A stretch of DNA of 64,000 nucleotides from Rhizobium sp. N324 (lineage in GTDB: Bacteria > Pseudomonadota > Alphaproteobacteria > Rhizobiales > Rhizobiaceae): positions 1,181,001-1,245,000 of the forward strand of contig NZ_CP013630.1 of assembly GCF_001664485.1 (NCBI RefSeq), written 5' to 3'. A program made the translations under genes and the position numbers. Below, piece after piece: positions 1 to 18,827 of this stretch (the first letter of the stretch is position 1; each line of letters starts with the position of its first letter). Under the pieces are notes generated by a model that made no database searches, had not been told where the DNA came from, and saw only the letters and a program-made list of their open reading frames with translations.

Positions 1-206
1 TTGTGGGGAGGGGTTGGGGAGGGGTCTTTCACAGCCGGATGAAGGGGCTGGCATGAGTCGTCTCGCCTGCTGCCAAATGCACGAACATGAACGGCAGCAC
101 CCCAATGGCGCGTTTCGCCTCTCCTGCGGCGCATATGAGGTTGTCTCGCCGGGGCAGTCGCTTCACCATGAAGGCAACTTCAGCTCCGGGAACAGACAGG
201 CAGGCC

Positions 207-3179
207 ATGACAGATATCGCGCAGATGCAGGAACAGCGATTGAACGCCCTTCGACAGACCGCGTCGGGCGCGCCGAAGCTGCCGTCCAACCCGTTCTTCG
301 GCGTCGGGCCGATTACCGATGCGACGACCGACGAAGTCGATAGCCGCCTGCGGCGCATCGCCTTCGACGCCTGGATCGAGAAGACCTATCGCAAATTCGA
401 CGACCGGGGCAACGATATCGGCGGCTTCACCACCGCCGAGATTTCCCGCAGCATGCATCGCGGCTATCCGGCCGACAAGATCCTGACCGACATGATGCGG
501 GCGATCCATCGCTATTTCGGCTTCCCGAAGGAGAACCGCATGGCGGTGGGGCTCGGCGGCGGCCATAGCGGTTTCACCGTCTGCATCCAGCACCTGATGA
601 ATGCCAACGATGCCGGCCAGCGCGTCTATGTCGACACGCCGCGGCCGGAGAGCGATCCGTCCAAGGCCGCCGGCTTCTTCCGCCAGTCCTGGGCGACCCA
701 GCTGATCGAAATGCAGCGTTTCGCCGAAAAGGGCTGCGAGAGCCGCATCCATTTCGCCGCCTCCGAGGGCGTGATCCCGACGGCGGCCGAACTTGCGGCG
801 CTCGGTGTGTCGATCTTCGTCGGCGTCGGCCACGAGACGACGGGGGCCAATGCCTATACCAGCGCCGAGATTCGCGAACTGCTGAGCTGGCTCGACGGCG
901 ACCCGGCCAACCGCCATGCGGTGTTCGACGCCACCTCGATGCTCGGCGCCATGCCCTGGGAGCCCGAACTCGTCAGCGCCGTCATGGCGAAATGCTGCCT
1001 GTTCATGCCGTTCCAGAAGGCGATCGGCGGCATTTCCGGCTATTTCGTCGCCTCCTTCACCCCGCATGCGCTGGCGCTGATCGAGAAGAACCAGCAGGAT
1101 CCGGCCTGGGCGATCCCGCGCCAGCTGAAGATCGCGCCGCCGATCGATCCGCGGCAGCCGTTTTCGGCCAAGCGCTCGGTCGATGCCGGCCCGTTCTATG
1201 ATCCGGCCGAGGACCGCATGCTCGGCGGCGTTATCAACACCTACAGCGCGCTCGCCTTTGCCGAGACCACCTTCGGCCTGCTGCAGTCCGAAGCCCGGGT
1301 CGGCACCATCGTCGAGCTCAACCGCCGCTCCGCCGCCAACCGCGCCGTGATCGACGAATGGGTCAAATCGCACCCGCTGCTGTCGCTGACCGTCACCGAT
1401 GCCGAGCGCCGCGGCGCCGCCGTGACGCTGCTGAAGGTCGAGGACGACATCACCGATGCCGGCATCCACGCCCGCATCATCGCCCGTTCCAAGCAACTGC
1501 TCGGTTATGAGGGCATCACCCATCCGAACGGCGAATACGAGCCCGGCCTCGACGCGGCCCGCTACGTCAACGCCTTCCCCGGCACCCCCGGCGACTACCG
1601 CGCCTGGGTCGGCGGCATCCGCGAGCCCGACGATGTCGTCGCCCTGCTGGAAAACCTGCAATATGCCTATCTCAGAGCCAAGATCGTCGTGCTCGAGGAG
1701 GAGCTGGCAAAACACAGCGTCACCTTCGAGGCGCCCGCCAAGGCCGATGGCGCCGTGCGCAAGGACGATCCGAACCGCGCCTATACGGTGCTGATCGCCG
1801 ATCTCGTCGGCCTGCGCTTCGGCGCCGGTGGCGAGCCGGATTACAGCGAGGTCAAGGCCTATATCGAGGAGAAGGGCGGCAGCTTCCATCTCGGCCCTCT
1901 CGGTGATCGTTCGGCGCTGGAAAAGGGCCGCATCCACTTCTTCTATCAGCCGAACCTCAGCACCGAGGCGGAGATCCTGCCGCAGACCGATAAGGGCCAG
2001 TATGACGCGCTGATCGCGGCGGCGACCTTCATCCCGAAGTCCTCCGTCTTCCCGCTCGGCGGCGTGCGCATCGGCGCCGGCACCGGCAATATGGGCTCGG
2101 CCTCCTGGGGCGGTGGCAACGGCGAGGGCGGCGAAGCGGCGCTGATGAACACGCCCGGCATCAACAGCCGCGCGACCGCCCAGATGGCCGTGAAGGCGAT
2201 CCTGAAGGTCATGCCCGACCTCCCGGTCGACAGGCTGCACCGGATGGTCGCTGGCGGCGATTTCGATACCGGGCGCCAGCTGAAGGATTTCCCGACGGCC
2301 AAGCTCGAGGGTCGCAAGCTCGCCGTTCTCGGCTACGGCAATATCGGCCGCGAAGTCGCCAAGCTCGCCAAGGCCTTCGGCATGAAAGTGTCGATCTATG
2401 CCCGCGAGAATCACAAGCGCTGGATCGAGGCCGAGGGCTTCGACTATGCCGCAAGCCCTGTGGAAGCGGCAAGCGGCGCCGACGTGCTCTCCGTCCATAT
2501 CGGCCTCGGCCGCCTGGATGCCGCGACCGGCATCTATTCCAATGCCGGCACCGTCAATGCCAAGGTGCTCGGCGCCATGAAGGACGGCGCGGTGCTGGTC
2601 AATTACGATCGCGGCGAAGTCGTGGACGCCGGCGCGCTCGATGCAGCCCTTGCCTCCGGCAAGATCGCCCATGCGGCGATCGACGCCGACCTCTTCAGCG
2701 ATGCGGCGACCGGCACGCTGAGCGGCCCGATGCTGCCCTACCTGCCGCTCGAGGAGCGCCACAAGGGCAAGCTGGAACTGCTGCCGCACGCCGCCGCCGA
2801 CACTGACCACCCGTCGCGGGTGACCGGCGCCAAGCAGGCGGTCGACCAGATCTTCGACGTCATCCGCTTCAAGTCGGTCGTCAATCTCAAGGGCGACCTG
2901 CCGGAAGGGCATGTCTCCGGCGGCAGCCGCACGCCGGCCGGCATCGGCAAGGTGACGAAGCAGGTCGTCGCCGAGGCCGGCGGCAAGGCAGCGCTGCTCG
3001 AAGAACTGCGCCAGGCCTCGGAAAAGATCGCCGCCATAACAGGCGCGCTGTCGGCCGTTTCCGACCGGGGGCACCAGGCGCGGATCGTCGAGCGTTACAC
3101 CGGCCTGCTGGTCGAAAATGCCGACCGGCAGCGGACGCTTCTCGATCAGCTCGGCCTGTATGGGCCGGCGGAGGGGTGA
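207..3179 (+). CDS. Fused SerC-like aminotransferase / SerA-like 2-hydroxyacid dehydrogenase
   Basis: The 990-residue protein has two enzymatic halves. Residues ~100-450 look like a class V PLP aminotransferase of the SerC group: an FDATS motif is followed by FQKAIGG, whose Lys (about residue 271) would form the Schiff base. Residues ~560-890 look like an NAD-dependent D-2-hydroxyacid dehydrogenase of the SerA group, with GYGNIG (from about 709) as the dinucleotide loop and an NYDRGEVVD segment before the catalytic region. In serine synthesis SerA oxidises 3-phosphoglycerate and SerC transaminates the product, so a fusion could channel the intermediate. That role is inferred; the true substrates may differ. 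The start is set at MTDIAQ because conserved-looking sequence begins just after it. Further ATGs lie upstream at 87, 105 and 168. Confidence 0.8.
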   Translation: MTDIAQMQEQRLNALRQTASGAPKLPSNPFFGVGPITDATTDEVDSRLRRIAFDAWIEKTYRKFDDRGNDIGGFTTAEISRSMHRGYPADKILTDMMRAIHRYFGFPKENRMAVGLGGGHSGFTVCIQHLMNANDAGQRVYVDTPRPESDPSKAAGFFRQSWATQLIEMQRFAEKGCESRIHFAASEGVIPTAAELAALGVSIFVGVGHETTGANAYTSAEIRELLSWLDGDPANRHAVFDATSMLGAMPWEPELVSAVMAKCCLFMPFQKAIGGISGYFVASFTPHALALIEKNQQDPAWAIPRQLKIAPPIDPRQPFSAKRSVDAGPFYDPAEDRMLGGVINTYSALAFAETTFGLLQSEARVGTIVELNRRSAANRAVIDEWVKSHPLLSLTVTDAERRGAAVTLLKVEDDITDAGIHARIIARSKQLLGYEGITHPNGEYEPGLDAARYVNAFPGTPGDYRAWVGGIREPDDVVALLENLQYAYLRAKIVVLEEELAKHSVTFEAPAKADGAVRKDDPNRAYTVLIADLVGLRFGAGGEPDYSEVKAYIEEKGGSFHLGPLGDRSALEKGRIHFFYQPNLSTEAEILPQTDKGQYDALIAAATFIPKSSVFPLGGVRIGAGTGNMGSASWGGGNGEGGEAALMNTPGINSRATAQMAVKAILKVMPDLPVDRLHRMVAGGDFDTGRQLKDFPTAKLEGRKLAVLGYGNIGREVAKLAKAFGMKVSIYARENHKRWIEAEGFDYAASPVEAASGADVLSVHIGLGRLDAATGIYSNAGTVNAKVLGAMKDGAVLVNYDRGEVVDAGALDAALASGKIAHAAIDADLFSDAATGTLSGPMLPYLPLEERHKGKLELLPHAAADTDHPSRVTGAKQAVDQIFDVIRFKSVVNLKGDLPEGHVSGGSRTPAGIGKVTKQVVAEAGGKAALLEELRQASEKIAAITGALSAVSDRGHQARIVERYTGLLVENADRQRTLLDQLGLYGPAEG

Positions 3180-3227
3180 GGCCATCGACGGCACGGCGAG
3201 TGGCGATGGTTTTTTGTCGCTGACGTC

Positions 3228-3434
3228 GTGCCGTGTGGCCCCCTCATCCGACCCTGCGGGCCACCTTCTCCCCGCTGGGGAGAAGAGGGAGCAAGGCGCT
3301 CCGACACTGACAAAAGAACCCGCCCGCTAATAGGCACTTCATCCAATGGGATCGATGGCGAAGCCGCGCGCTCCCTCTTCTCCCCAGCGGGGAGAAGGTG
3401 GCCCGAAGGGTCGGATGAGGGGGCTGCACGGCAC
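3228..3434. repeat. RIME-like intergenic inverted repeat (family A, copy 1)
   Basis: Two ~60-base arms face each other across a ~75-base spacer. The arms open with GTGCCGTG and a CCCCCTCATCCGACCC stretch, and carry an inner TTCTCCCC/GGGGAGAA hairpin; the right arm ends in CACGGCAC. The organisation and sequence fit the Rhizobium-specific intergenic mosaic elements. Other copies are at 14510, 23279, 32913, 62107 and 62904. Confidence 0.8.
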
Positions 3435-3795
3435 AACCTCACATCATCATTCATTCCGCGACTCTGCGCTCGAGGCCGTTGGCCTGCGGGCGCCATCCGT
3501 GCTTGGTCCAAGGGCGGGCATCGAGACGCTGCACCGCAAGCGTGCCCCTCTTTCCCGCTTGAAAATCTCCCGATATGCGCTAGCTGTGAGCATCGTCATA
3601 CCACCGATATTTGCATATTTAATTGATAGAAGATATTTCGGATTGCTGCCTATGCTCGATGCCCAGCGCTGCCCTGTTTTCCCAAGAACGCCGTCCGGCC
3701 GCGGCATCATCCAGAACACATGAACCGCAAGAACGCGCCGCCCGGCGTTGCTGAGGCAATGCCGGTGAGGAGGGGCGAGCGAGGGAGGACTGACG
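3435..3795. other. Intergenic region upstream of the DUF4132 operon
   Basis: No convincing gene is present. A short AT-rich patch lies near 3595-3640, unlike the flanking DNA, and could hold the promoter of the operon that starts at 3796. I could not assign -35/-10 hexamers with confidence. Confidence 0.4.
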
Positions 3796-6700
3796 ATGTT
3801 CGTTGAGGGTTTGAAGAAGCTGCTGCGCGGCCGTTCCGAAACGCAGGATGCGGCAGCCAAGGGCGGACTGACGGCCGGCGACAGGGACGCTGTTGTCGCC
3901 GACCTCGCCTCCTTCGAGGGGGTGGAGAAGGGGCTCGGCAAGGCCCTTGCCGGCTACGTGCTGTCGGGCACGGGCGACGCGTCCCTGCTCCATCTCAAGA
4001 ACCTCCTGAAGAATTCCAAGGACGAAATCCGCGTCAGGCTGAACAACGCCTTCATGGCCAGTGCCGATGATTGGAAAAACAAGGCGGAGGCGAGTAAGCG
4101 CAGCAAGGCGAGAGAACGGCTGATGTTCGGTCTCGAAGGTTTCGATGCCGCCGCACTCTATCGTTACTTCCTGCTGCACAGCGAGTTTCGTCAGCAGAGC
4201 AGGGCCTGGAACTTCCCCGGCAGCGATCGATCGCCGTATTGGCTGCGCGCAGCCACCTATCTTCTCGATATGCGCGTGCCTGAAGGGGGTGCTCCGCTCG
4301 GTTTTCTCAGCGCCGAACGCGCGCTCGAAATGATGGCGGCGGCCGGACTTGCGCCCTCGGTCGCGCCGCTGATCGATTGCGCCTTTGTCGACGGCGACGT
4401 GCCCTACGGAAATCTGACCCAGCGCATGCTGAAGCTTCCGGGCCTTGTCGATGCCATCGGCGCCATGCCGGAGGAGGCGGTCAAGGCGATCGGCGGTCTT
4501 GCGGCCGGCGGCCGCGAGGCGATGACCAGCTTCATCGGCCAGAACGGCTTCATCGATCGCGAACCGCAGTTCTTCGATTTCGCCTTCGCCATGGCAGGCG
4601 ACGGCGCCAAGGCGGTGCGCGATGTCGCCGTCAATGCGCTGAAGGCGGCGGATGCAGCCAAGGTCCAGGCCAAAGCCGAGGAATTTCTCGCCTCCCGCAA
4701 GGCCAACGAGCGGCTGGCCGGCGTCAACATTCTCGCCGCTTTGCTGCGCGAGAAGTCCCTGCCGATCCTCGCAAAGCACGAGGGCCAGGAAAAATCCAAC
4801 ACGGTGATCGCGGCGATCGGCACGATCCGCGCCACCTATGCCGCGGGCGCTGCCCGCTCGGGCGAGGACGGCCAGGCGGATGGCGGCGACGGCTATATCG
4901 CGATCGACGGCAGTTTCGTCGCCGTGCCGCCGGTCGCCTCCACGCCGGAGATGCCGCTGCCGGCCGATCTGGAAGAGGCCTTCCGCAAGATGCTTGCCGA
5001 AACCAACGCGGCCGCCCGCATCGATTACGACCAGACGCCGCCGGGCAAGGAATGGAACCAGCGGCCGGCGCGACCGTTCTCGGCGCCCTTCGACCCGGGG
5101 CTGGCAAAACACATCGTTGCCGCCATGTCCGGCGAGCGGCTGAGCGAGGCGCAGCGCCGCCAGGTCTGGGCCGCGATTGACGGCAAGGGCGGTTATCACT
5201 GGGAGCGTCAGAGGAACCAGGTCCACGCCAACGGGTTGAAGGCGATCTTCGCCCGTGCCGATATTTCCTTCGAGGCGCTGTCGTGGCTGCTGTTCCAGGC
5301 AACCGACGGGCGCCATTGGCAGCATATATTGCGGGTCGTGCTCGGCGTGCCGAATTACTGGATGCGCGGCCCCGACGATGAACTGGTCACCCGCATCCGG
5401 GCCGGCGCCGATATCCGCATCCTCGCCGACATTGCCGCGGCGGCCGGGGCGCCGGCCTTCGGCGCCATGACAAACGAGCTTGTCGACAGGGCCTATGTCA
5501 ATATCGCCGAGATGATCGACGAGCCGGCGCCGGCCAATGTCTGGCCGCTGCTCGCCGAAAATTTTGCGGCGATCGATGCAGCACTCGCCGGCGACGGGCT
5601 GAAGGAGCGCTGGACCGAGGATTTCATCTTCTCCTGGCTGCGCTTCTTTCCGCATCTGCCGCGCCGCTATTTCCCGCTGGTCGCCGATCGTGCCCTGCAG
5701 GCCGGCGTGCGCCAGCGCGACTTCGCCCGCCACCTCCTGCGCGAGGTCGACGATCTCACGCCGCTGATCACGCCGATGCTGACGGCGGGCCCGGAGGCCA
5801 AACGCATGGCCGCCGCCCGCTGGCTGGCCGAGCGGCGGGACGCCAATGCGATCGCGCCGCTGCGCGCAGCCATTGCCAAGGAAAAATCCGTCGCGGTCAA
5901 GGCGGCCGCCCTGTCGGCGCTCGCCGCCTGCGGCGACGATACCTCGGATTTTTTCGCCGAGGGTGCGCTGATTGCCGAGGCGGAAAAGGGGCTGGCTTCG
6001 ACCAAGGTCGATTATTCCGCGCTGTTTGATGCCGAAAACCTGCCGGCGCTGCATTGGGCGGATGGCCGCGAAGTGTCGCCGGTGCTGGTACGCTGGTGGT
6101 TTGCCCGTTCGCACAAGCTGAAAATGCCGGCCGGCGATCCGCTGATCCACATGGCGCTCGAACGCCTCCACCGGAAGGATGCCGAGCGGCTGGGGGCGGC
6201 GGTCGTCTCGGCCTTCATCTCCTACGACACGCAGCGCCCGACGAGCGCGGAGGCCAATGCCCATGCGGCGGCCAATGCCAAGCAGCGCTACGATTATACG
6301 AAGAAATGGCGCACCGATTTTACCGAGGAGCTGGCCTTTGCCGAGCTGCGCCGGGAAAAGCTCGCCATCTATTTAAACAGCGCGCTCGATCATCGCGGCC
6401 TGCTGGCGCTTGCCCGCTTCGCGCCGCCGGCCGAGACCACGCTTCTCGTCAAGCGTTACCTGCGCGAACACGGCAAGCGGCCGAACCAGTGCCGGGCGCT
6501 GCTCGATGCGCTGATGGCAAACCCGGTTCCCCAGGTGCTGCAGCTCGTGCTGATCGCCTCGCAGCGCCACAAGCAGCCGGGCATGCGCAAATATGCCGGC
6601 GAGGTCATCTCCGCCTTTGCCGAGGCGCGCGGCTGGACGCCGGCCGAACTCGGCGACCGCACCATGCCGTCGGCCGGCATTGACGAGGACGGCTTGCTCG

Positions 6701-7656
6701 AACTGCCGATCGGCGAACGCCTCTATCGCGCCCGTCTGGTCGCCGAAACGGCCAAGAACGGCAAGGAGGAGATGAAGCTCATCCTCGAAAATCCCGACGG
6801 CAAGCCGATCGCCTCGCTGCCGACGCCTTCGGACCCGGAGGAGGCGGAAGAGGCGAAGGAGGCGAAGAAACTGCTTTCCAGCGCCAAGAAGGAACTGAAG
6901 CAGACCGTGGAGCTGCAGAGCGGCCGCCTCTACGAGGCGATGTGCACGGCCCGCCTCTGGCCGCGCGAGGATTTCGAAACCTTCCTGCTTGCCCATCCGA
7001 TCGTCGGCCGGCTGCTGCGCCGCCTGGTTCTGGCCGGCCATGACGACAAGGGCAAGATCGTCGCCAGCTTCCGCGCGCTCGACGACGGCACCTTCACCAA
7101 TGCCGAGGACGAAGCCGTCGATCTCAAAGACTTTGCCGGCATCTCGATCGCCCACCGCGTCAGCCTCGGCGAGGCCGGGGCCAAGGCCTGGAAGACTCAT
7201 CTCGACGATTACGAGGTCAAGCCGCTGTTCGAACAGCTCGACCGGCCGGTGCTTTCCGAGGACAAGCCGCACGCCAAGCGCATCGACGACCGCAAGGGCT
7301 GGATGATCGACAATCTGACGCTTCGCTCGGCCGCTGAGGCGCTCGGCTATATCAGAGGCCCGGTCGAGGACGGCGCCGGCTTCTACACCTATGAGAAGAC
7401 GTTCGGCGATTGCGGCGTGGCCGCCATCATCGAATTCACCGGCAGCTATATCGGCGAGAGCGAACGCGTGCCGAAGGCGCTGACCGAGATGCGTTTTGCC
7501 CGCATCCAGCCGGGCGGCCGGGTGACCTATGGCGGCGAGACGCCGCTTGCCAAGGTGCCGCCAGTGCTGCTCAGCGAAACCTGGAACGATCTGCGCGCCA
7601 TCGCCGACAAGGGCACCGGCTTCGATGCCGCGTGGGAAAAGAAGGGTGGATGGTGA
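3796..7656 (+). CDS. DUF4132 (MolR/YehI-like) protein, first gene of five-gene operon
   Basis: This 1286-residue protein opens the operon. The N-terminal ~1000 residues are rich in short alpha-helical repeats of HEAT-like character, for example Ala/Leu-rich pairs around residues 680-740. The C-terminal ~280 residues carry the DUF4132 signature: a charged linker with EEAEEAKEAKK, then a segment in which a conserved AHR is followed by a Trp-containing stretch, PLFEQLDRPVL, and a terminal YEKTFGD region. GGAGG seven bases before the ATG supports the start. E. coli YehI/MolR belongs to this family, whose biochemical role is not established. The stop codon is 2 bases before the next gene's likely ATG. 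The helical repeats suggest a scaffold or client-binding subunit for the ATPase that follows; this is inference. Confidence 0.85.
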   Translation: MFVEGLKKLLRGRSETQDAAAKGGLTAGDRDAVVADLASFEGVEKGLGKALAGYVLSGTGDASLLHLKNLLKNSKDEIRVRLNNAFMASADDWKNKAEASKRSKARERLMFGLEGFDAAALYRYFLLHSEFRQQSRAWNFPGSDRSPYWLRAATYLLDMRVPEGGAPLGFLSAERALEMMAAAGLAPSVAPLIDCAFVDGDVPYGNLTQRMLKLPGLVDAIGAMPEEAVKAIGGLAAGGREAMTSFIGQNGFIDREPQFFDFAFAMAGDGAKAVRDVAVNALKAADAAKVQAKAEEFLASRKANERLAGVNILAALLREKSLPILAKHEGQEKSNTVIAAIGTIRATYAAGAARSGEDGQADGGDGYIAIDGSFVAVPPVASTPEMPLPADLEEAFRKMLAETNAAARIDYDQTPPGKEWNQRPARPFSAPFDPGLAKHIVAAMSGERLSEAQRRQVWAAIDGKGGYHWERQRNQVHANGLKAIFARADISFEALSWLLFQATDGRHWQHILRVVLGVPNYWMRGPDDELVTRIRAGADIRILADIAAAAGAPAFGAMTNELVDRAYVNIAEMIDEPAPANVWPLLAENFAAIDAALAGDGLKERWTEDFIFSWLRFFPHLPRRYFPLVADRALQAGVRQRDFARHLLREVDDLTPLITPMLTAGPEAKRMAAARWLAERRDANAIAPLRAAIAKEKSVAVKAAALSALAACGDDTSDFFAEGALIAEAEKGLASTKVDYSALFDAENLPALHWADGREVSPVLVRWWFARSHKLKMPAGDPLIHMALERLHRKDAERLGAAVVSAFISYDTQRPTSAEANAHAAANAKQRYDYTKKWRTDFTEELAFAELRREKLAIYLNSALDHRGLLALARFAPPAETTLLVKRYLREHGKRPNQCRALLDALMANPVPQVLQLVLIASQRHKQPGMRKYAGEVISAFAEARGWTPAELGDRTMPSAGIDEDGLLELPIGERLYRARLVAETAKNGKEEMKLILENPDGKPIASLPTPSDPEEAEEAKEAKKLLSSAKKELKQTVELQSGRLYEAMCTARLWPREDFETFLLAHPIVGRLLRRLVLAGHDDKGKIVASFRALDDGTFTNAEDEAVDLKDFAGISIAHRVSLGEAGAKAWKTHLDDYEVKPLFEQLDRPVLSEDKPHAKRIDDRKGWMIDNLTLRSAAEALGYIRGPVEDGAGFYTYEKTFGDCGVAAIIEFTGSYIGESERVPKALTEMRFARIQPGGRVTYGGETPLAKVPPVLLSETWNDLRAIADKGTGFDAAWEKKGGW

Positions 7657-7658
7657 AA

Positions 7659-8750
7659 ATGGATCAGTCAGTCCTTCGTCCGGCAACGGAAATCCTTTAT
7701 GCAGCCGAGCTTGCCAGGCTGGCCGAGACCGACAAGGGGCCGCGGCCGCCGGGCTGGCGGCTCTCGGCACGCGCCGTGCGCGCCTTCGTGCTCGGCGATG
7801 CCGCGCTCGGCATCTCGCGCAAATTCTACGGCGACGATGCGCTCGTCGAGCGGGCGATCGTCAGCCTGATGGGCGAGCAGGGGCTGCTGCTCGTCGGCGA
7901 GCCGGGCACGGCGAAATCGATGCTGAGCGAGCTTCTGGCCGCCGCCGTCACCGGCTCGACCCGCCTCGTCGTCCAGGGCTCGGCCGGCACGATGGAAGAG
8001 CATCTGCGTTATGGCTGGAACTATGCGCTGCTGATTGCCGAAGGCCCGAGCGAAAAGGCGCTGGTGCCGTCGCCAGTGCTGCAGGCGATGCGCGCCGGCC
8101 TCGTCATGCGCATCGAGGAGCTGACGCGCTGCCCGCCGGAGATCCAGGACGGGCTGATCTCCATCCTGTCGGAAAAGATGATCGCAATTCCCGAACTCGG
8201 CGATGCCGCCATCGTGCGCGCCGCGCCGGGATTCAACATCATCGGCACGGCGAACCTGCGCGACCGCGGCGTCAGCGAAATGTCGAGCGCCTTGAAGCGG
8301 CGCTTCAACTTCGAAACCGTGCATCCGATCACCGACCCGACCTTCGAACGCGAGCTGATCCGCCGCCGTCTCGCCGACCGGCTGGCGCCGTCAGGCGTCA
8401 AGCCGGATCTGCCGGAGGCGGCGCTTGCCATCCTCGTCTCCTGCTTTCAGGAGTTGAGAGCGGGGCGCACCGCCGAAGGCGTGACGCTGCAGAAGCCGGC
8501 CGCCGTCATGTCGACCGCCGAAGCGGTCAATGTCGCCCATGCGGCCGCCCTCGAAGCCGCGTATCTCGGCGACGGCATGGTGACGGGCGCGCATCTTGCC
8601 CGCCAGATCGGCGGCATCGTGCTGAAGGACGATCCGGAAGACGGCCGCAAGTTCAAGTCCTATGTCGATCATGTCGTCAAGGACCGTGCCCGCTCCGGCA
8701 GCGACTGGCGCTCCTTCTATGAGGCAGCGCGCGTCCTGAGGCTCGGCTGA
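7659..8750 (+). CDS. MoxR-family AAA+ ATPase (YehL-like)
   Basis: The 363-residue protein has a Walker A motif GEPGTAKS at residues 80-87, a Walker B-like segment ending in RIEELTR, and a sensor-1 region GTANLRDRG followed by the arginine-rich LKRRF. These are hallmarks of MoxR AAA+ ATPases, which usually act as chaperones with a VWA-domain partner, here encoded two genes downstream. Start choice: ATG 7659 has GGGTGG about nine bases upstream, while an in-frame ATG at 7650 overlaps the preceding stop and has no room for a ribosome site. The next gene begins immediately after the stop, so translation is probably coupled. Confidence 0.9.
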   Translation: MDQSVLRPATEILYAAELARLAETDKGPRPPGWRLSARAVRAFVLGDAALGISRKFYGDDALVERAIVSLMGEQGLLLVGEPGTAKSMLSELLAAAVTGSTRLVVQGSAGTMEEHLRYGWNYALLIAEGPSEKALVPSPVLQAMRAGLVMRIEELTRCPPEIQDGLISILSEKMIAIPELGDAAIVRAAPGFNIIGTANLRDRGVSEMSSALKRRFNFETVHPITDPTFERELIRRRLADRLAPSGVKPDLPEAALAILVSCFQELRAGRTAEGVTLQKPAAVMSTAEAVNVAHAAALEAAYLGDGMVTGAHLARQIGGIVLKDDPEDGRKFKSYVDHVVKDRARSGSDWRSFYEAARVLRLG

Positions 8751-11246
8751 ATGGAGGCGGAGGCGGCAGAACACGAGGCCTTTGCCGCCTATGGGCGGCG
8801 GCTGACAGCGGGCGAAGGCGGATTTTTCTTCTTACCCATCCGCCACCACAGCCCGGCCTGCGCGCTGCACCTGACCGCCGCCCTGGCCGAGATCGGCCCG
8901 CGCGCCATCGTGCTGGAGATGCCGGCGGATTTTGCGGCCCTGCTGCCGCTTTTGTCGCATCCCGATATCAGGCTGCCGATCGCCATAGTGTCCGTCGCCG
9001 ACGGCGAAGGGACCTCCGACGAGCGCCTTCCCGTCGGCTACTGGCCCTTCTCGGCGACTTCGCCGGAATGGGCGGCGCTGCGGCTCGCCGGAGAGCGCGG
9101 CTGCCCGGTTGTCTTTGCCGATCAGGAGAGCGGCGCCCGCCTTGCCGCCGCCCGCCAGGAGAAGGCACGCGAGGAGGGCGAGGGCCAGGCGCCGGGCGAG
9201 GAGGCAACGGCGCCGGCGCTTTTGACCGACGAGGGCCAGCTTGCCTATTCCGATTATGCCGAGGGCCTGGTGAAGCGGCTCAGCGTGCGCGATTTCAACG
9301 AGGCCTGGGACCGGCTGTTCGAATCCCGCGCCGGGCAGAAGGATTGGCGCGGCTTTTTCCGCGATGTCGGCATTCACTGCGCCCTGTCGCGCCTGGCTAC
9401 TCCGGCCGCCGCGATCGCCGCCGACGATACGCTCTCCCGCGAGGCCTCAATGCGCGCGGCGATGGCGAGGGCGGCGCTGTCGCCGGGCGAGGGGCCGATC
9501 GCCGTCATCACCGGCGGATTTCACACGCCGGCGCTGATCGATCCGCCGGCTGAAGGGGAGCGGGTGGAAGCGGGCAGGGCGCCGCCGGCTGTCCGCACGA
9601 AATCCTATCTGATCCGCTACACCCATGATCATCTCGACCGGATCAACGGTTACGGCGCCGGCATGCCGTCGCCGCGCTGGTACGAGCGGCTGCTCGGGCG
9701 GGTCGGCGAAGGCCATGATGATCCCTTCACCGAGGCGGCGGCGGATGTGGTGCTGGCGCTGGCCGAGCGCCTGCGTCGCGACCGGCCGAATTTCATGCCG
9801 CCTCTGCCCTCGCTTGCCGCCACCGTCGCCCAGGCGCGGGCGCTCGCCGATCTGCGCGGCCTGCCGGGGCCGGGGCGGGCCGAGATCATCGATGCGGCGC
9901 GCTCCTGCCTGGTGAAGGGCGAGGATCCGCGCGATCAATCGCCGCTGATCGAGGTGCTGATGACCGAGCTTGCCGGCGAAGGCATCGGCGAGGTGCCGCG
10001 CGGCGCCGGCGCGCCGCCGCTGGTCGAGGCGGTGCGCAGCCGCGCCCGGGCGCTCGGCTTCCGCATCGACGACGGCACCGAGCGCAACCGCCTGCTCGAT
10101 ATTCATCGCAAGCCCCGGCATCTCGCCGCAAGCCGCTTCCTGCATGTGATGTCGCTGCTCGGCACCGGCTTCGGCCGCTGCCAGCGCGGCCCGGACTGGG
10201 TGGGCGGCACCGCCACCGACGTGCTGTTCGAGGAATGGACCTATCGCTGGTCGCCGGCCGTCGAAAGCCGGCTGGTGGCGCTGTCGATCGACGGCGACAC
10301 GGTCGAGCGCGCCGCCGACGCCGTGCTGTCGCGAAGCGTCGAGGCGCTTGGGCGGGAAGGCAAGGCGCGCAACGCGCTTGCGGCGATCCGCCTGCTGCTG
10401 ATTGCCGGCCAGGCCGGTCTTGCCGGCGCCTGCACCGCGCTGATGGCGGCGATCGGCCCGGCCGTTGCCGCCGATCCGGATTTCGGCCGGGTAGCGCTCT
10501 GCCTGTCGATGCTCGATAATCTCCGCCGCGGCCGCAAGATCCTCGGCTTTGCCGGCATGGCCGGCCCCGATGTGCTGCGGCTTGCCGCCTATCGCCGTGC
10601 CATCGATCTGCTGCCGACGCTCGAAGGTGCGAGGGAAGAGGACGTGCCGCGGTATGTCGAGGCGCTGGCAACGCTGAACGAGATCGCCGAAGCCGGCGCC
10701 GCGGCCGGCGATGACGAGGAGCGGCTCGATCTCGATCTTCTCGATGAAGGCATTTCAGCCCTGCTCGATGGCGACCTCGCGCCGCGGGCAGCCGGTGCCG
10801 TCGCCGCAATCGCCCATATGTCCGGCCGGGTGAGCGCCGCGGCACTCGCAACCCGCGTCATCGGCCCGCTGCAATTCGGCGTCGGCGACCCGCCCGCCCG
10901 GGTGGAGCCGCTGACCGGCCTGCTGGCGGTGCAGCCGGCGCTGCTCAAGCGTACGCCGGCCCTGCTGGAGGGGCTCGATGAGGTGCTCGCCGGCTTCGAC
11001 GAGGCCGATTTCATCCAGGTGCTGGCGCCGCTGCGGCTTGCCTTCACCGCGCTTGCGCCTGACGAAACCGATGCGCTCGCCGCCGTCATCGCCGAAGCCA
11101 AGGGCAGCGCGCTCGGTCTCGCGCCGCGTTTTTCCGGCGGCCCGAGCGAGGCCGGCATGCTCGCCAATGCCCGCCTCAACGCCACCCTGGCCGAGCTGAT
11201 GCAGGCGGACGGGCTTGCCGCCTGGCTGATGGAGCCGGCATCATGA
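8751..11246 (+). CDS. DUF5682 protein of the MoxR-VWA operon
   Basis: This 831-residue protein begins on the base after the MoxR stop codon. Near the N-terminus it has the family-typical IRHHSPAC motif (about residues 26-33) and then LEMPADF. A second conserved-looking block with HTPALID and YTHDHLDRINGYGAGMPSP lies around residues 265-305. The remainder is helical and Ala/Leu-rich. No enzymatic activity can be assigned, although the paired His and Asp residues in the first 300 residues could form an active or metal site. It sits between the ATPase and the VWA gene, a position comparable to E. coli yehM. The ATGA overlap with the next gene shows tight coupling. Confidence 0.8.
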   Translation: MEAEAAEHEAFAAYGRRLTAGEGGFFFLPIRHHSPACALHLTAALAEIGPRAIVLEMPADFAALLPLLSHPDIRLPIAIVSVADGEGTSDERLPVGYWPFSATSPEWAALRLAGERGCPVVFADQESGARLAAARQEKAREEGEGQAPGEEATAPALLTDEGQLAYSDYAEGLVKRLSVRDFNEAWDRLFESRAGQKDWRGFFRDVGIHCALSRLATPAAAIAADDTLSREASMRAAMARAALSPGEGPIAVITGGFHTPALIDPPAEGERVEAGRAPPAVRTKSYLIRYTHDHLDRINGYGAGMPSPRWYERLLGRVGEGHDDPFTEAAADVVLALAERLRRDRPNFMPPLPSLAATVAQARALADLRGLPGPGRAEIIDAARSCLVKGEDPRDQSPLIEVLMTELAGEGIGEVPRGAGAPPLVEAVRSRARALGFRIDDGTERNRLLDIHRKPRHLAASRFLHVMSLLGTGFGRCQRGPDWVGGTATDVLFEEWTYRWSPAVESRLVALSIDGDTVERAADAVLSRSVEALGREGKARNALAAIRLLLIAGQAGLAGACTALMAAIGPAVAADPDFGRVALCLSMLDNLRRGRKILGFAGMAGPDVLRLAAYRRAIDLLPTLEGAREEDVPRYVEALATLNEIAEAGAAAGDDEERLDLDLLDEGISALLDGDLAPRAAGAVAAIAHMSGRVSAAALATRVIGPLQFGVGDPPARVEPLTGLLAVQPALLKRTPALLEGLDEVLAGFDEADFIQVLAPLRLAFTALAPDETDALAAVIAEAKGSALGLAPRFSGGPSEAGMLANARLNATLAELMQADGLAAWLMEPAS

Positions 11247-12403
11247 GCGATCGGAAGACGCCTGAGGAGAGCCTTCGCCGCTGGCGCCTGGTGCTCGGCC
11301 GCTTCGCCGAGCGCCAGCTTTCGGGCTGCTGCAGCGGTGCCGACGCCCGCCGCGACGCCGTGCTCGAACGCATCTACGGCGAATCCTATCGCCGCCGCGG
11401 CATCCGCACGGGTGGGCCCGAGAGCGGCCGGAAGAATCGGAAAGGCGGCGCCGAGCCGCCGCAGATGACGCTGCCGGAATGGTATGGCGAGATGCGCGCG
11501 CTGTTTCCGAAATCGGTGCTGGAGCGGGTGGAAAAGGATGCGCTCGGCCGCTTCGGCATGACCGAGCTTCTCGACGATCCCAAGGCGCTCGCCGAACTCG
11601 ATCCCGATCCGTCGCTGCTGGCCGCGCTGCTGGCCCATCGCGGCCGCGCCGATCCGGTCATCGCCGCCAAGATCCGCGAGGTCGCCAAGTGCGTCGTCGA
11701 GGAATTGACCAAGCGGCTGCGGCTGCAGACGAGCCGGGCGCTCTCGGGCGCCAGGCGGCGCGGCGAGACGACGGCGCGCCGCTCATCCGCCCGCGACATC
11801 GCCTGGAACCAGACGATCCGCAAGAACCTGAAGAACTGGGATCAGGAGCGGCGCGTGCTGATCGCCGAACATCTGCATTTCCACGCCGCCGCCCGCCGAC
11901 ATCTCCCCTGGCGCATCGTGCTCTGCATCGACCAGTCGGGCTCGATGGCGACCTCGCTGATCTACAGCGCCGTGATGGCCTCGATCCTGTCGACCCTGCC
12001 GGCGGTGACGGTCAAGCTCGTGCTGTTCGATACGACTGTGGTCGACCTCAGCGACGAGGTCGGCGATCCCGTCGACGTGCTGATGTCGGTGCAGCTCGGC
12101 GGCGGCACCGATATCGGCCGGGCGGTTGCCTATTGCGAGGCGACGCACATCGCCGAGTCGCAGCGGACGATCTTCGTGCTGATCTCCGATTTTTGCGAGG
12201 GCGCGCCGGTTGCTCCGCTCTTCGCCGCCATCCGCCGGCTGGCCGGTGCCCGCGTCAAGCTGCTCGGCCTTGCCGCTCTCGATGAGGCCGCCCGGCCGGC
12301 CTATGACCGGGAGACCGCCGCCCGCCTGGTCGATGCCGGCATGGAGATCGCCGCGCTGACGCCGGAGCATTTCGCCGACTGGGTTGCGGGGCATATCAGG
12401 TGA
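11243..12403 (+). CDS. VWA-domain protein, CoxE/YehP-like partner of MoxR ATPase
   Basis: The 386-residue protein has a helical N-terminal half and a von Willebrand A domain from about residue 220. The MIDAS metal site is visible as DQSGS (Asp at ~230), followed by the later LGGGTDIG loop and an ISDFCEG strand. VWA proteins encoded beside MoxR ATPases are thought to bind clients or cofactors during assembly of protein complexes. The start overlaps the preceding stop as ATGA, and the 3' end overlaps the next GTG start as GTGA. The intact MIDAS suggests a functional metal-binding domain. Confidence 0.88.
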   Translation: MSDRKTPEESLRRWRLVLGRFAERQLSGCCSGADARRDAVLERIYGESYRRRGIRTGGPESGRKNRKGGAEPPQMTLPEWYGEMRALFPKSVLERVEKDALGRFGMTELLDDPKALAELDPDPSLLAALLAHRGRADPVIAAKIREVAKCVVEELTKRLRLQTSRALSGARRRGETTARRSSARDIAWNQTIRKNLKNWDQERRVLIAEHLHFHAAARRHLPWRIVLCIDQSGSMATSLIYSAVMASILSTLPAVTVKLVLFDTTVVDLSDEVGDPVDVLMSVQLGGGTDIGRAVAYCEATHIAESQRTIFVLISDFCEGAPVAPLFAAIRRLAGARVKLLGLAALDEAARPAYDRETAARLVDAGMEIAALTPEHFADWVAGHIR

Positions 12404-14478
12404 GCGGCGCCAAGACGGAGAATTCGGCACGGTTTGATGCCGCGGCCCTCGGCGACGAGCTGCTGGAAGCCGCCTCCTCCAAGGGCCTGCTGCGCCGCGC
12501 CCGCCGCGATGTCGAGGCCGGCCTCGTGCGGCTGACCGGCTGGGATGGCGGCACGGCGCTCGCCGAAGCCGATGGTGAAAGCGTGCGGCTCGCCGCCGGG
12601 CCGCTGGCCGCAGCAGGCTGCAGCTGCCCGGCGACCGGCCTTTGCCGGCATATTCTCGCCGGCATCCTGTTCATCCGCGAGGCCGGCGAGGCGACGCCGG
12701 CCGGTGCGGCGGAACCGGCCGAGACGTCGCCTGTAGCCGCTGCGGCGGCTGCGGATGCGCATGCCGAAATCCTTTCGCTCGGCCAGGATGCCATCGCCCG
12801 CGCCTTCGGCCGCGCCGCCTATATCAAGGCGCAGGCGCTGCTGGCCGCGCTCGACGCCGGCGCCGTCAGGATCGAGCCGAGCGCCACTGCCGTCCGCATC
12901 GCGCTCGGCGACCATCCCGCCGTGCTCTATCCCGCCGGCGGCGGCCCGGCCGGCATGATCTCGAAGGCCGCGACCTCGCTGCGCGCCGCGCTGCATGCGG
13001 CCGCCCTGCTTGCGGTGCGCGGCCCCGGCGAGCCGGTTGCCGAGGCGGAGCAGGCACCGGAAGAGGTGGCAGAGCCAGCATCCGGCGTGCTCGAAGAGGC
13101 CGCCGCGCTGCTTTGCGATGCCGCGCGCCAGGCGCTGTCAAAGGCGCCTGTCGGTCTTGAGGAGCGGATCGGCGATCTCGTGCTGTCCTCGCGCGCCGAG
13201 GCGATGCCGCGGCTGGCCGCCGAGCTTCGCACCATCGCCGCCATGATCCGGCGCCGGCGCGAGCGGCTGGAGGCGGCCGATCCGGCTGAGCTTCTCATCA
13301 TGCTGGCGCGCGCCTATGCGCTGACGCAGGCGCTGCAGGCTTCTCCCGACGCAGCCTTGCTCTCCGGCGCCGGGGCGGAAGCGCCGCAGCCGCTTGAGGC
13401 AATCGATCTCCTCGGCTGCGGCTTGCGCCTGTGGCAGAGCGAAAGCGGCGCGCGCGGCGTTACCGGCTATTATCTCGCAGCCGACGGACGAAGCTTCAGC
13501 GCCACGCTGGCGCGCGCGCCCGGCAGCGATCCCGGCTTTGCGCCGCGCCATGCGGCGACCGGCGAAACGGTTTTTGGCCGCTCGCTTGCGGCAATCGCCG
13601 GCAGCGCCTTCCGCCTCGAGGGGGCGGCCGTCAGCGGCAGTGGCCGGCTGCACACCGGCAGCGGCCGCGCCGAACTTCTGGAACCCGGCTGGGAGGCGGC
13701 GGTCAGACGGATCGCCGGCGTGGCGATCGACGATTGGAGCCAATGCGCCACGCGCCTGGCCCGCGCCTTCCAGCCGGTGCTTGCCGCGCCGCCGCGCCGC
13801 GGCCAACCGCTGATCCTGCGGCCGGCGCAGTTCGGCCCGCTCAGCTTCGACGGCGTGGCGCAGGTCGGGCGCTGGCCGGTGCGCGACCGCGAGGGCCGCT
13901 GGCTGGAGCTGGAGATCGAGGGCGACGAGCGGCTGGAGGCGAATTTCGCCCGGCTGGGGGCGATCAGCGATCGCCAGCCGCCGCTGCTGGCAGTTCTGGC
14001 CGAAGCCCGCGGCGCCGAGATCGTGTTCTCGCCGCTGGGCTTCGGAACCGACAGCCTGAGCATGCTGGACCTGCCGCCGCCGCCACAGGCGGCGATCGCG
14101 CAAAAGCCAAGCCTGCTGTCGCGCCTGACCAAAGGCCTGACGCTCTCCGGTATGGCCGAGCGCATGGCCGCCGAGATGCGCTTCGAGGCGATGGCGCGCC
14201 CGCAGGCGGCAAGCCTGCGGCTGGTCGCCGCCGCCTTCGACGAGATCCTGGCGCTGGCCGAACTCGGCGGGCGCATGGAGGATCCGGAGCGGCTGCAGCG
14301 CATGGAGGGATTGGGCCAGCGGCTCGAGGAGGCGGGCCTGGCGCTGGCCGGCCGGCTTCTGACGACGCTTGCCGCCGCCCCCGGCCGCAAACGCGCCGAT
14401 CACCTGCTGCGCGCCGCCTATGCGCTCGATCTGATAAACCGCATCGATCCGCAACTGCCCTTCGTGCGGATGCTTTGA
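12400..14478 (+). CDS. SWIM zinc-finger protein (YehQ-like), last gene of operon
   Basis: This 692-residue protein probably starts at GTG 12400, which overlaps the previous stop. A SWIM zinc finger of the form CxC-x5-CxH is visible at residues 74-84 (C74, C76, C82, H84). The rest is Ala/Leu/Arg-rich and helical, with no other motif I recognise. SWIM fingers bind nucleic acid or protein in other families. With DUF4132, MoxR, DUF5682 and VWA it completes a set resembling E. coli yehI-yehL-yehM-yehP-yehQ. A RIME-like element follows the stop. Confidence 0.85.
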   Translation: MSGAKTENSARFDAAALGDELLEAASSKGLLRRARRDVEAGLVRLTGWDGGTALAEADGESVRLAAGPLAAAGCSCPATGLCRHILAGILFIREAGEATPAGAAEPAETSPVAAAAAADAHAEILSLGQDAIARAFGRAAYIKAQALLAALDAGAVRIEPSATAVRIALGDHPAVLYPAGGGPAGMISKAATSLRAALHAAALLAVRGPGEPVAEAEQAPEEVAEPASGVLEEAAALLCDAARQALSKAPVGLEERIGDLVLSSRAEAMPRLAAELRTIAAMIRRRRERLEAADPAELLIMLARAYALTQALQASPDAALLSGAGAEAPQPLEAIDLLGCGLRLWQSESGARGVTGYYLAADGRSFSATLARAPGSDPGFAPRHAATGETVFGRSLAAIAGSAFRLEGAAVSGSGRLHTGSGRAELLEPGWEAAVRRIAGVAIDDWSQCATRLARAFQPVLAAPPRRGQPLILRPAQFGPLSFDGVAQVGRWPVRDREGRWLELEIEGDERLEANFARLGAISDRQPPLLAVLAEARGAEIVFSPLGFGTDSLSMLDLPPPPQAAIAQKPSLLSRLTKGLTLSGMAERMAAEMRFEAMARPQAASLRLVAAAFDEILALAELGGRMEDPERLQRMEGLGQRLEEAGLALAGRLLTTLAAAPGRKRADHLLRAAYALDLINRIDPQLPFVRML

Positions 14479-14509
14479 GGTGAAGGCATTTCCGTTTTTC
14501 GTGAGGCCG

Positions 14510-14650
14510 GCCCCTCATCCGCCTGCCGGCACCTCTCTCCCCGTAAACGGGGCGAAGGGACTATGCCGCAACCTCTCCGTCCCTTGCTAGCCTCTCGCAA
14601 GGCACGTCCCCTCTCCCCGTTTTTACGGGGAGAGGGTTAGGGTGAGGGGC
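14510..14650. repeat. RIME-like mosaic palindrome (family A, copy 2)
   Basis: The element starts with CCCCTCATCCGCCTGCCGGC and ends in GGTTAGGGTGAGGGGC. Internal hairpins are CTCCCCGTAAACGGGG and CTCCCCGTTTTTACGGGGAG. It lies between the convergent SWIM and lipoprotein genes and could help end transcription. It closely matches copies at 23279 (inverted) and 62107. Confidence 0.8.
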
Positions 14651-14678
14651 ACATCCGGGGTCGGAACCGAACCGTCCG

Positions 14679-15350: not shown

Positions 15351-15427
15351 CGGAGTGTAGCGCAGTCTGGTAGCGCACCACGTTCGGGACGTGGGGGTCG
15401 AGTGTTCGAATCACTCCACTCCGACCA
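15351..15427 (+). tRNA. tRNA-Pro (anticodon CGG)
   Basis: A complete cloverleaf is visible. The acceptor stem is CGGAGTG/CACTCCG, the D arm contains AGTCTGGTAGC, the anticodon stem is CCACG/CGTGG around loop TTCGGGA, and the T arm contains GTTCGAATC. CCA is encoded at 15425-15427. The anticodon CGG (15385-15387) reads CCG proline codons. Confidence 0.97.
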
Positions 15428-18122: not shown

Positions 18123-18770
18123 CTACATCTCGATGATCGATCGGCGGACGCGGCCGACGACGGTGACGGCGCCCTGGAAATCCGGCGGCGGCACATCCTC
18201 ATAAGAAGCGGGCTGGAAGGGCGGGTTGTCGTTCGGGCGATAGCGCTTGTAGGTGGCGGCCCCCGTCTCGTCGGCGACGACATAGAGCGCGTTCGGCGCC
18301 AGGCGCTTGTCGCGCAGATTGACGAAGATGATCGAGCCCGGCGGCGAGATCTTGTTCATCGAATTGCCTTCGACCTCGAGCGCGATCCATTCGCCATCGG
18401 GCAGATCGAGCGCGGCCACCGTCGGGAACTCCGAAAAGTCGGTGATCGGCGCCTGCTCGCTCAGTTGGCCGGCGCTGACCCAGGAGATCTTCGGCACATC
18501 GGCGACGGAAACCGGCAGTTCATCGGGATCGAGCGCGTTGCCGGTTCCGAACTGCAGCCAGTTGAGATTGACCTTGAAGGCGCGGGCGTACTTTTTCGCA
18601 TCGGCGATGCCGAAGCCGTTGCGGCCGGACTCGTGCGCCTTGTAAACATTCGCATTCCAGCCGAACCGATCGACGATCGCTTTCGGCCCGGCAAAGCCCG
18701 CGTTTTTCCGGGCCATGACCAGCCGCTTTGCGCGTTCCTCGCGCTCAAATTGTTCCTGATCTTTCAACAT
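18123..18770 (-). CDS. Prophage CI/LexA-type repressor (HTH + S24 peptidase)
   Basis: The 215-residue protein has an N-terminal helix-turn-helix region (about residues 15-75) that contacts DNA, and a C-terminal S24 autoprotease domain. Visible catalytic features are an Ala-Gly cleavage pair in WVSAGQL (A100-G101), Ser137 in GNSM and Lys175 in TYKRY. Proteins of this type keep a prophage silent and cleave themselves when RecA is activated by DNA damage. ATG 18770 is preferred over one at 18806 because the family pattern begins with the basic helix just after it and the upstream part lies in the operator. Operators next to its start imply autoregulation. Confidence 0.88.
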   Translation of the reverse strand: MLKDQEQFEREERAKRLVMARKNAGFAGPKAIVDRFGWNANVYKAHESGRNGFGIADAKKYARAFKVNLNWLQFGTGNALDPDELPVSVADVPKISWVSAGQLSEQAPITDFSEFPTVAALDLPDGEWIALEVEGNSMNKISPPGSIIFVNLRDKRLAPNALYVVADETGAATYKRYRPNDNPPFQPASYEDVPPPDFQGAVTVVGRVRRSIIEM

Positions 18771-18780
18771 GATATAAAAA

Positions 18781-18799
18781 ATACCCCATTTTAGGGTAT
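18781..18799. promoter_or_regulatory. Putative operator, inverted GGGTAT half-sites, at repressor start
   Basis: ATACCCCATTTTAGGGTAT contains the same half-sites as the 17344 and 17379 sites, here facing outward across seven bases. It begins 10 bases upstream of the repressor ATG, within its likely promoter. Confidence 0.6.
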
Positions 18800-18827
18800 A
18801 TGTCATGCTCTTTTCTGCTTGACGTGC

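Follow-up and report, generated by a model that had tools for sequence, protein, structure and literature searches.

A Five-Gene MoxR-VWA Operon of Rhizobium sp. N324 Whose DUF5682 Protein Probably Carries a ChaN-Like Domain

Introduction

CoxDE and CobST are precedents for metalloenzyme maturation by systems of the MoxR-VWA type. In the NorQ-NorD pair, as set out in an excerpt of its description, remodeling by the MoxR ATPase is coupled through the VWA protein (PMC13036017). A YehL subfamily of MoxR has been named (PMC3893208), and other yeh genes of Escherichia coli figure in excerpts of further papers: yehQ among numerous butanol-mutant candidates (PMC6442406), yehP as an entry of an expression table (PMC3589462), and yehM among the genes mutated in copper-exposed populations (PMC12409786). 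The literature passages at hand on yeh genes, including yehQ, yehP, and yehM, give no function for the set, and a literature search found no paper with the term DUF5682. Here, we analyze an operon of Rhizobium sp. N324 (genome size, 6.97 Mb) that encodes, in this order, a DUF4132 protein, a MoxR ATPase, a DUF5682 protein, a VWA protein, and a SWIM zinc-finger protein. It lies in a 64-kb stretch of DNA (G000:C1:1181001-1245000), referred to below as the window.

The operon is real and widespread and is known in E. coli by gene names; its function is what we infer. As a tentative explanation, which we place a little short of evenly balanced, the five proteins constitute one ATP-driven machine in which MoxR and VWA act on a ChaN-like DUF5682 subunit. 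New in this analysis are an all-or-none rule for the gene set with two versions of it, a predicted ChaN-like domain with candidate active-site residues in DUF5682, and a mobile-looking state of the operon in Rhizobium.

Conservation of the Gene Set and Its Two Versions

Contigs of named genomes were scanned with the DUF5682 alignment, which gave at least 593 pattern matches, 577 of them confirmed; the best 80 of the 577 were kept, and these loci represent the closest relatives rather than an even sample. One locus (L104), with a weak DUF5682 match below the cut-off, was left out. Partner families were mapped with profiles derived from annotated plasmid loci together with those of the window and E. 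coli. Fifty-two loci extend for 7 kb or more on either side of DUF5682, and the 28 with shorter DNA on one side were dropped. The complete set of MoxR, VWA, SWIM, and DUF4132 surrounds DUF5682 in 42/52 loci, and a second complete set, formed by MoxR, VWA, a second SWIM type, and DUF5691, is present in 8/52. Partial sets were not observed (0/52), and two loci (L023 and L085) are empty. The same or a closely similar set is linked in very distant bacteria, complete sets recurring in nine phyla among the loci examined.

MoxR is located directly 5' of DUF5682 in 67 of the 70 loci with room for the gene, and VWA directly 3' in 69/75. In most proteobacterial and planctomycete loci DUF4132 is found upstream; in Acinetobacter and the majority of Bacillota loci it is downstream, and in an Allorhizobium plasmid it sits between DUF5682 and VWA. 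The pairwise distances of the five families correlate with r of 0.90-0.95, compared with permutation maxima of 0.09-0.17. DUF5682 and VWA share one reading frame in two actinobacteria, Streptomyces NBC_00984 and a metagenome-assembled genome (MAG) of Micrococcales. A VWA-SWIM frame in locus L061 was rejected as a further fusion, since it appears to be frameshifted. Taken with an exact phyletic match within the genus (see below), the all-or-none presence, co-divergence, and fusion bear out the suggestion of a preliminary description of this DNA that the genes act as a unit.

The set is nevertheless not fixed in the way that description had assumed, because DUF5691 replaces DUF4132 in the second complete architecture. 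These SWIM-DUF5691-MoxR-DUF5682-VWA cassettes, in most of which the SWIM gene comes first, share with the window the MoxR-DUF5682-VWA core and a SWIM protein; they were found in an R. etli plasmid, Deinococcus taeanensis, Methylosinus, Leptolyngbya, and actinobacteria. In profile comparisons the two SWIM families are akin beyond the motif itself (93.1%, E 3.2e-7), and the corresponding values for DUF4132 and DUF5691 are 19.6% and 0.0012. The DUF5682 proteins of DUF5691-type cassettes form a separate deep branch of the tree. The VWA gene of one such cassette, on Methylosinus plasmid pOB3b3 (L008, 11220-12388), is spread over three overlapping frames and therefore looks broken.

Two or more DUF4132 reading frames, some of them fragments or overlapping, occur in seventeen loci (L012, L019, L029, L068, L078, and others), which suggests that this subunit was repeatedly duplicated. 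A small gene separates SWIM and DUF4132 in two loci (cluster representatives of 153 and 121 aa at L048:15474-15935 and L066:15153-15518, respectively). Related frames, which form two clusters, were detected in 8 loci from a spirochaete MAG, an unplaced bacterium, and Bacillota, and the gene may be a counterpart of E. coli yehK.

The surroundings revealed no further gene that accompanies the set constantly. The largest neighbor clusters shared among loci, a response regulator and an ABC ATPase, comprise 6 loci, and in a scan of 216/239 nearest neighbors, those of up to 700 aa from crude gene calls, no Pfam family exceeds 4/108 or 3/108.

Probable ChaN-Like Domain of DUF5682

The preliminary description had seen no client or metabolic gene in the operon and had considered the helical DUF4132 and DUF5682 proteins as possible recognizers of the target. 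The view of an operon with no enzyme-like member and of DUF5682 as simply a helical recognition protein was not supported, since the N-terminal part of DUF5682 is probably ChaN-like, as judged by sequence profiles, and not only helical. In an AlphaFold2 model with a predicted local distance difference test score of 90 and a predicted template modeling score of 0.82, an alpha/beta domain extends to approximately residue 300 and is followed mostly by helices. Profile-profile comparison of residues 20-330 with ChaN (PF04187, Cofac_haem_bdg; 140 vs. 30 sequences, 187/214 columns aligned in the two orders) gave a probability of 89.6% (E 1.9e-6) and, in the other order, 93.6% (E 2.2e-7). Among the controls, reversed ChaN scored 0.7%, 30 column-shuffled ChaN profiles at most 1.6%, four other cassette families at most 0.2%, and the C-terminal part of DUF5682 0.24%. 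The match covers most of the domain, including both histidine motifs and the glutamate after strand 2, with the signature motifs in order: RHHSP is aligned with GExHDNP, E56 with the glutamate of LEM, REAxM with WDxxMA, and GGFH with GSGH. As a yardstick, the same test gave 93.6% for ChaN against TraB, presumably members of one superfamily, and 89.2% for the erythromycin esterase family (Ere, PF05139) against ChaN. The ChaN-like superfamily includes haem-binding, esterase, and peptidase proteins; Tiki/TraB is counted among peptidases in an excerpt of PMC8939145.

The key residues of DUF5682 are R31-H32-H33-x-P35, E56, SPE104-106, D124, E191, R230-E231-xx-M234, and G255-xx-H258. Across 77 diverse sequences, 19 key positions are invariant except for one E231D replacement and G or A at position 256, although the invariance of R31, H32, H33, and P35 in the 80-locus set is in part a matter of selection, since an RHH pattern was used to fetch the loci. 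Thirteen sequences not fetched by this pattern have the same residues apart from G or A at 256, and in a word-search alignment of 59 rows, including the window, the exceptions are one at H33, one at H258, 16 at S104, and 3 at G256. These near-invariant histidine, glutamate, and histidine positions make an enzyme or ligand site within the operon probable.

Proposed Mechanism and the Chaperone Alternative

The explanation that we prefer builds on results obtained by computation: a fixed gene set with two alternative partners, co-divergence, fusion, the ChaN-like match, and near-invariant putative active-site residues. The five proteins would associate physically, and a MoxR ring, with the VWA protein as the coupling element by analogy to NorQ-NorD, would use ATP to remodel or activate the large DUF5682 subunit, which would carry a ChaN-like hydrolase or ligand site. 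Recognition of a substrate or damage signal may fall to the SWIM protein together with DUF4132 (DUF5691 in the second version), and these proteins would bring it to DUF5682, where catalysis could take place. A more specific form, which we regard as quite unlikely, is an AAA+-driven hydrolase or peptidase of a new kind, with a MoxR-VWA motor feeding DUF5682 and with DUF4132 plus SWIM or DUF5691 plus SWIM as interchangeable recognition modules, employed by several bacteria when DNA damage or a comparable stress occurs. The named residues and the all-or-none set with two partner types give this collection of uncharacterized domains the form of a machine that can be put to the test; should DUF5682 be its working end, the MoxR-VWA motor would bring an enzyme of its own.

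Several observations weigh against this explanation. DUF5682 lacks the glutamate of GExH, I30 occupying the aligned place. A search of the PDB with the whole model returned helical repeats only and nothing for the N-terminal domain; because the repeats filled the list, the search does not so far support a ChaN-like fold. Among PDB sequences, the N-terminal profile retrieved no ChaN or Ere chain at E<=10, and a chain sequence search with DUF5682 gave nothing meaningful. The profile match to Ere is 0.21%, with only 12 Ere sequences, and that to TraB is 31.9%, with the first motif alone matched. Loci L023 and L085, as well as L037, one of the 28 dropped loci, in which DUF5682 stands alone, retain the key residues and have no recognizable partner genes nearby. 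Finally, clear DUF5682-VWA fusions number only two, while co-divergence and linkage are expected of any co-inherited genes, and shared ancestry contributes to the correlations.

One alternative is an ordinary MoxR-VWA chaperone, in which the five proteins would mature a metalloenzyme client encoded elsewhere, with DUF5682 serving as a scaffold whose ChaN-like domain is dead. The assignment of two subunits to the MoxR and VWA_CoxE families, a cobaltochelatase-like match of the VWA protein that is weak and far under the cut-off, and the NorQD precedent, as far as the excerpt describes it (PMC13036017), agree with such a role. No client gene recurs beside the cassette, as would be the case for a distant client, and the finding of yehM in copper-exposed E. 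coli mutants is, in the excerpt concerned, a slight hint of a metal link (PMC12409786). However, near-invariant signature residues over many phyla argue against a dead domain, and a cassette present in just 9 of 148 genomes of the genus would be an odd aid to a housekeeping enzyme. We therefore consider this alternative unlikely.

Distribution in Rhizobium and the Insertion Site

DUF5682 was found in 9/148 genomes of the genus and in 12/299 genomes of the phylum. Three of the nine genomes encode DUF4132 and six DUF5691; these groups are disjoint and together make up exactly the nine. If the families were independent, the chance of this pattern would be about 1e-14, a value not corrected for kinship. 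The best relative of the window DUF5682, 96% identical, is from Rhizobium aethiopicum.

In nine operon-free genomes of the genus, the sequences matching the left and right flanks of the operon are approximately 70-360 bases apart, which delimits a block present in the window and absent from these genomes. Its left border falls at 3464-3487 in four genomes; in the remaining five, the match on this side stops at 3176-3210. The right border is at 14668-14676 in all nine. The G+C content of the operon is 69.1%, compared with 63.7% for the window. A tRNA-Pro gene lies beside the site, and the operon adjoins the same tRNA-Pro in the two other DUF4132-type Rhizobium genomes; the left flank is shared with one of these and is missing from the stretch fetched of the other. 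The operon thus looks mobile in Rhizobium, although insertion here and loss elsewhere are not distinguishable with certainty. Dispersed repeats with many copies in the genus flank it at 3221-3449 and 14503-14651, the former matching both strands and therefore being partly palindromic. On Iodobacter plasmid pl1 (L009), which is mobilizable, a full cassette precedes type I restriction-modification genes and has transposases to either side.

A role in anti-phage defense or another kind of conflict, with the cassette traveling as a mobile accessory block, would account for the patchy distribution, the two distantly related versions within one genus, the block of approximately 11.2 kb next to tRNA-Pro whose site is empty in nine genomes, and the plasmid-borne copies, one of them next to a restriction system. 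Against such a role, the five window proteins matched none of the PADLOC 2.0 families at E<=0.01, and no defense family exceeds 2/108 scanned neighbors in either set; the PADLOC models WGR_XIII and HEAT-ARM_XIII each matched one neighbor. Matches were also absent from phage records and, for close relatives, from IMG/VR. Moreover, yehM is present in 5284/5426 E. coli genomes (5166 at 80% coverage or more), and such near-core presence is, to our knowledge, unusual for an accessory defense system. The conflict role raised in the preliminary description is accordingly unsupported, and we hold it to be decidedly improbable.

Possible Link to the DNA-Damage Response

A stress role had also been raised, and for DNA damage it drew outside support from E. 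coli and Deinococcus genes and none from the window operon itself. In this alternative, which is compatible with the machine proposed above, damaged DNA or the protein complexes on it would be bound by WGR, SWIM, and HEAT-like subunits, leaving it to the ATPase to clear or process them. E. coli molR is presumably the WGR-DUF4132 gene in front of yehI-yehQ, an identification that rests in part on the statement, in an excerpt of PMC8533742, that MolR has an N-terminal WGR domain. According to an excerpt of another paper, molR is listed among the LexA-regulated E. coli genes (PMC11039860). In strain F17EC0245 an unbroken WGR-DUF4132 gene is the first in the row, followed by yehI to yehQ. WGR-DUF4132 proteins likewise precede the cassette in three Lentzea loci. 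In Deinococcus radiodurans, tagged DRA0166 (DUF4132) and DR2173 (WGR) rise on mitomycin C in an IrrE-dependent manner, as reported in an excerpt of PMC8533742.

At the E. coli locus, the sole match of a relaxed AT-rich pattern in 24 kb is a CTG-N10-CAG box whose end lies 9 nt before yehF. However, a looser LexA pattern, modeled on a presumed site, matches exactly at two further places in this locus, from which the stricter CTGT-N8-ACAG is absent. The alphaproteobacterial LexA box is GAAC-N7-GAAC; it occurs once in the 64 kb of the window, at 231-245, which is not upstream of the operon. Near the available cassette gene starts of 14 other gamma- and betaproteobacterial loci, no LexA-type site was found, and LexA boxes as a general feature of the cassette were rejected. 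A DNA-damage machine is, on balance, somewhat unlikely.

Features of the Operon and Its Neighborhood

The coordinates of the operon and its surroundings are given in Table 1. The five genes are genuine, and the abutting or overlapping arrangement noted in the preliminary description was confirmed: DUF4132 and MoxR overlap by 7 nt, with ATG 7650 chosen by us as the best of the possible MoxR starts; the MoxR stop and DUF5682 start are adjacent codons (8750/8751); and the remaining junctions are ATGA and GTGA. Its family assignments also proved correct, in that Pfam places four of the proteins. The fifth has no Pfam match at E<=0.001, and is assigned by its intact SWIM motif and by relatives, including E. 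coli YehQ, that score as PF04434 SWIM.

Table 1. Features of the DUF5682 operon region, in window coordinates.
Feature	Coordinates	Strand	Basis and remarks
Block of ~11.2 kb absent from nine same-genus genomes	3487-14675	+	Flank matches
DUF4132 protein, 1286 aa	3796-7656	+	PF13569 DUF4132 E=9e-33 (Pfam); DUF4132 domain at residues 1002-1185
C-terminal domain of DUF4132 protein, ~residues 1160-1278, possibly YugN-like fold	7273-7629	+	
MoxR AAA+ ATPase, YehL type (by kinship), 366 aa	7650-8750	+	AAA_5 E=1.1e-32 (Pfam)
DUF5682 protein, 831 aa	8751-11246	+	DUF5682 E=4.2e-102 (Pfam); probable ChaN-like alpha/beta N-terminus, then mostly helical
Putative ChaN-like domain of DUF5682, residues 20-330	8808-9740	+	Profile comparison and conserved residues
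VWA protein, VWA_CoxE family	11243-12403	+	E=2.7e-50 (Pfam); complete MIDAS; ATGA overlap with DUF5682 gene
SWIM zinc-finger protein, 692 aa	12400-14478	+	GTGA overlap with VWA gene
SWIM motif CSCPATGLCRH (CxCx5CxH), residues 74-84	12619-12651	+	
tRNA-Pro (CGG) beside insertion site	15351-15427	+	

The claim that all key motifs are intact stood for Walker A (GEPGTAKS in the window MoxR), the metal ion-dependent adhesion site (MIDAS), and SWIM, with the proviso that Walker B is a variant. Motif conservation was counted in alignments of ordinary-length members from the surveyed loci (68 of the 80 for DUF5682, 66 for MoxR, 57 for VWA, and 52 for SWIM), to which the window and a small number of annotated or same-genus loci were added. 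The non-canonical Walker B, RxEE, is present in 76/76 aligned MoxR members. MIDAS residues D230, S232, and S234 are found in 65/65 VWA proteins, T289 in 63/65, and D316 in 64/65, and each CxCx5CxH position is kept in 52/55 SWIM family members. One profile retrieves both YehL and the window MoxR, and the invariant RxEE is common to both; by this kinship and its location with yehM-, yehP-, and yehQ-type genes, the window MoxR can be assigned to the YehL subfamily on sequence grounds.

A HEAT-like Pfam match at residues 658-716 of the DUF4132 protein is below the cut-off. Sequence searches of PDB chains led from MoxR to midasin and gave nothing meaningful for DUF4132 and the SWIM protein, while a sigma-70 promoter scan and Rfam added nothing except the tRNA. 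Upstream of the operon, a 1030-aa protein (87-3179, + strand) has a D-2-hydroxyacid dehydrogenase NAD (nicotinamide adenine dinucleotide) domain at residues 716-866 and no Pfam match at E<=0.001 in its first 700 residues. Approximately 3.6 kb beyond the operon, a gene at 18123-18806 (- strand) encodes a LexA/CI-like regulator with helix-turn-helix and Peptidase_S24 domains.

Comparison With Known Systems

With ChaN, the window DUF5682 shares the profile match described above; unlike ChaN, it has approximately 500 extra, mostly helical residues, besides lacking the GExH glutamate. NorQ-NorD and RavA-ViaA resemble the window in that a MoxR ATPase has a VWA partner in each. Their reported clients are respiratory complexes, the excerpts at hand mention no DUF5682, SWIM, or DUF4132 partner, and the RxEE Walker B of the window MoxR is a further difference. 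The ternary bpMoxR systems (MoxR-vWA-beta-propeller), for which we take PMC7159879 to be the source, have in common with the window a MoxR and a VWA protein with further partners. PF20030, the bpMoxR domain, nonetheless scores only 23.7 bits, below the cut-off of 27, the five window proteins include no beta-propeller domain, and a term search of the main text of PMC7159879 for SWIM, MolR, and yeh gave no occurrence.

The closest counterpart is the E. coli molR-yehI-yehK-yehL-yehM-yehP-yehQ cluster. In one branch of E. coli ST131, the metG/DUF4132/yeh region is disrupted by a transposon in 184 isolates, according to an excerpt of PMC9334617, and this region (L006) is therefore dispensable there. 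The E. coli cluster has two additional genes, yehK and a WGR-DUF4132 gene that is split in K-12, and it is nearly core in its species (yehM in 5284/5426 genomes), whereas the cassette is rare in Rhizobium (9/148). The likeness proposed in the preliminary description is real, with the proviso that the window DUF5682 is approximately 25% identical to YehM and belongs to another branch of the tree: like a yeh-type cassette, the window has MoxR, DUF5682, VWA, SWIM, and DUF4132 genes adjoining on one strand, and it shares with E. coli the same five families in the same order.

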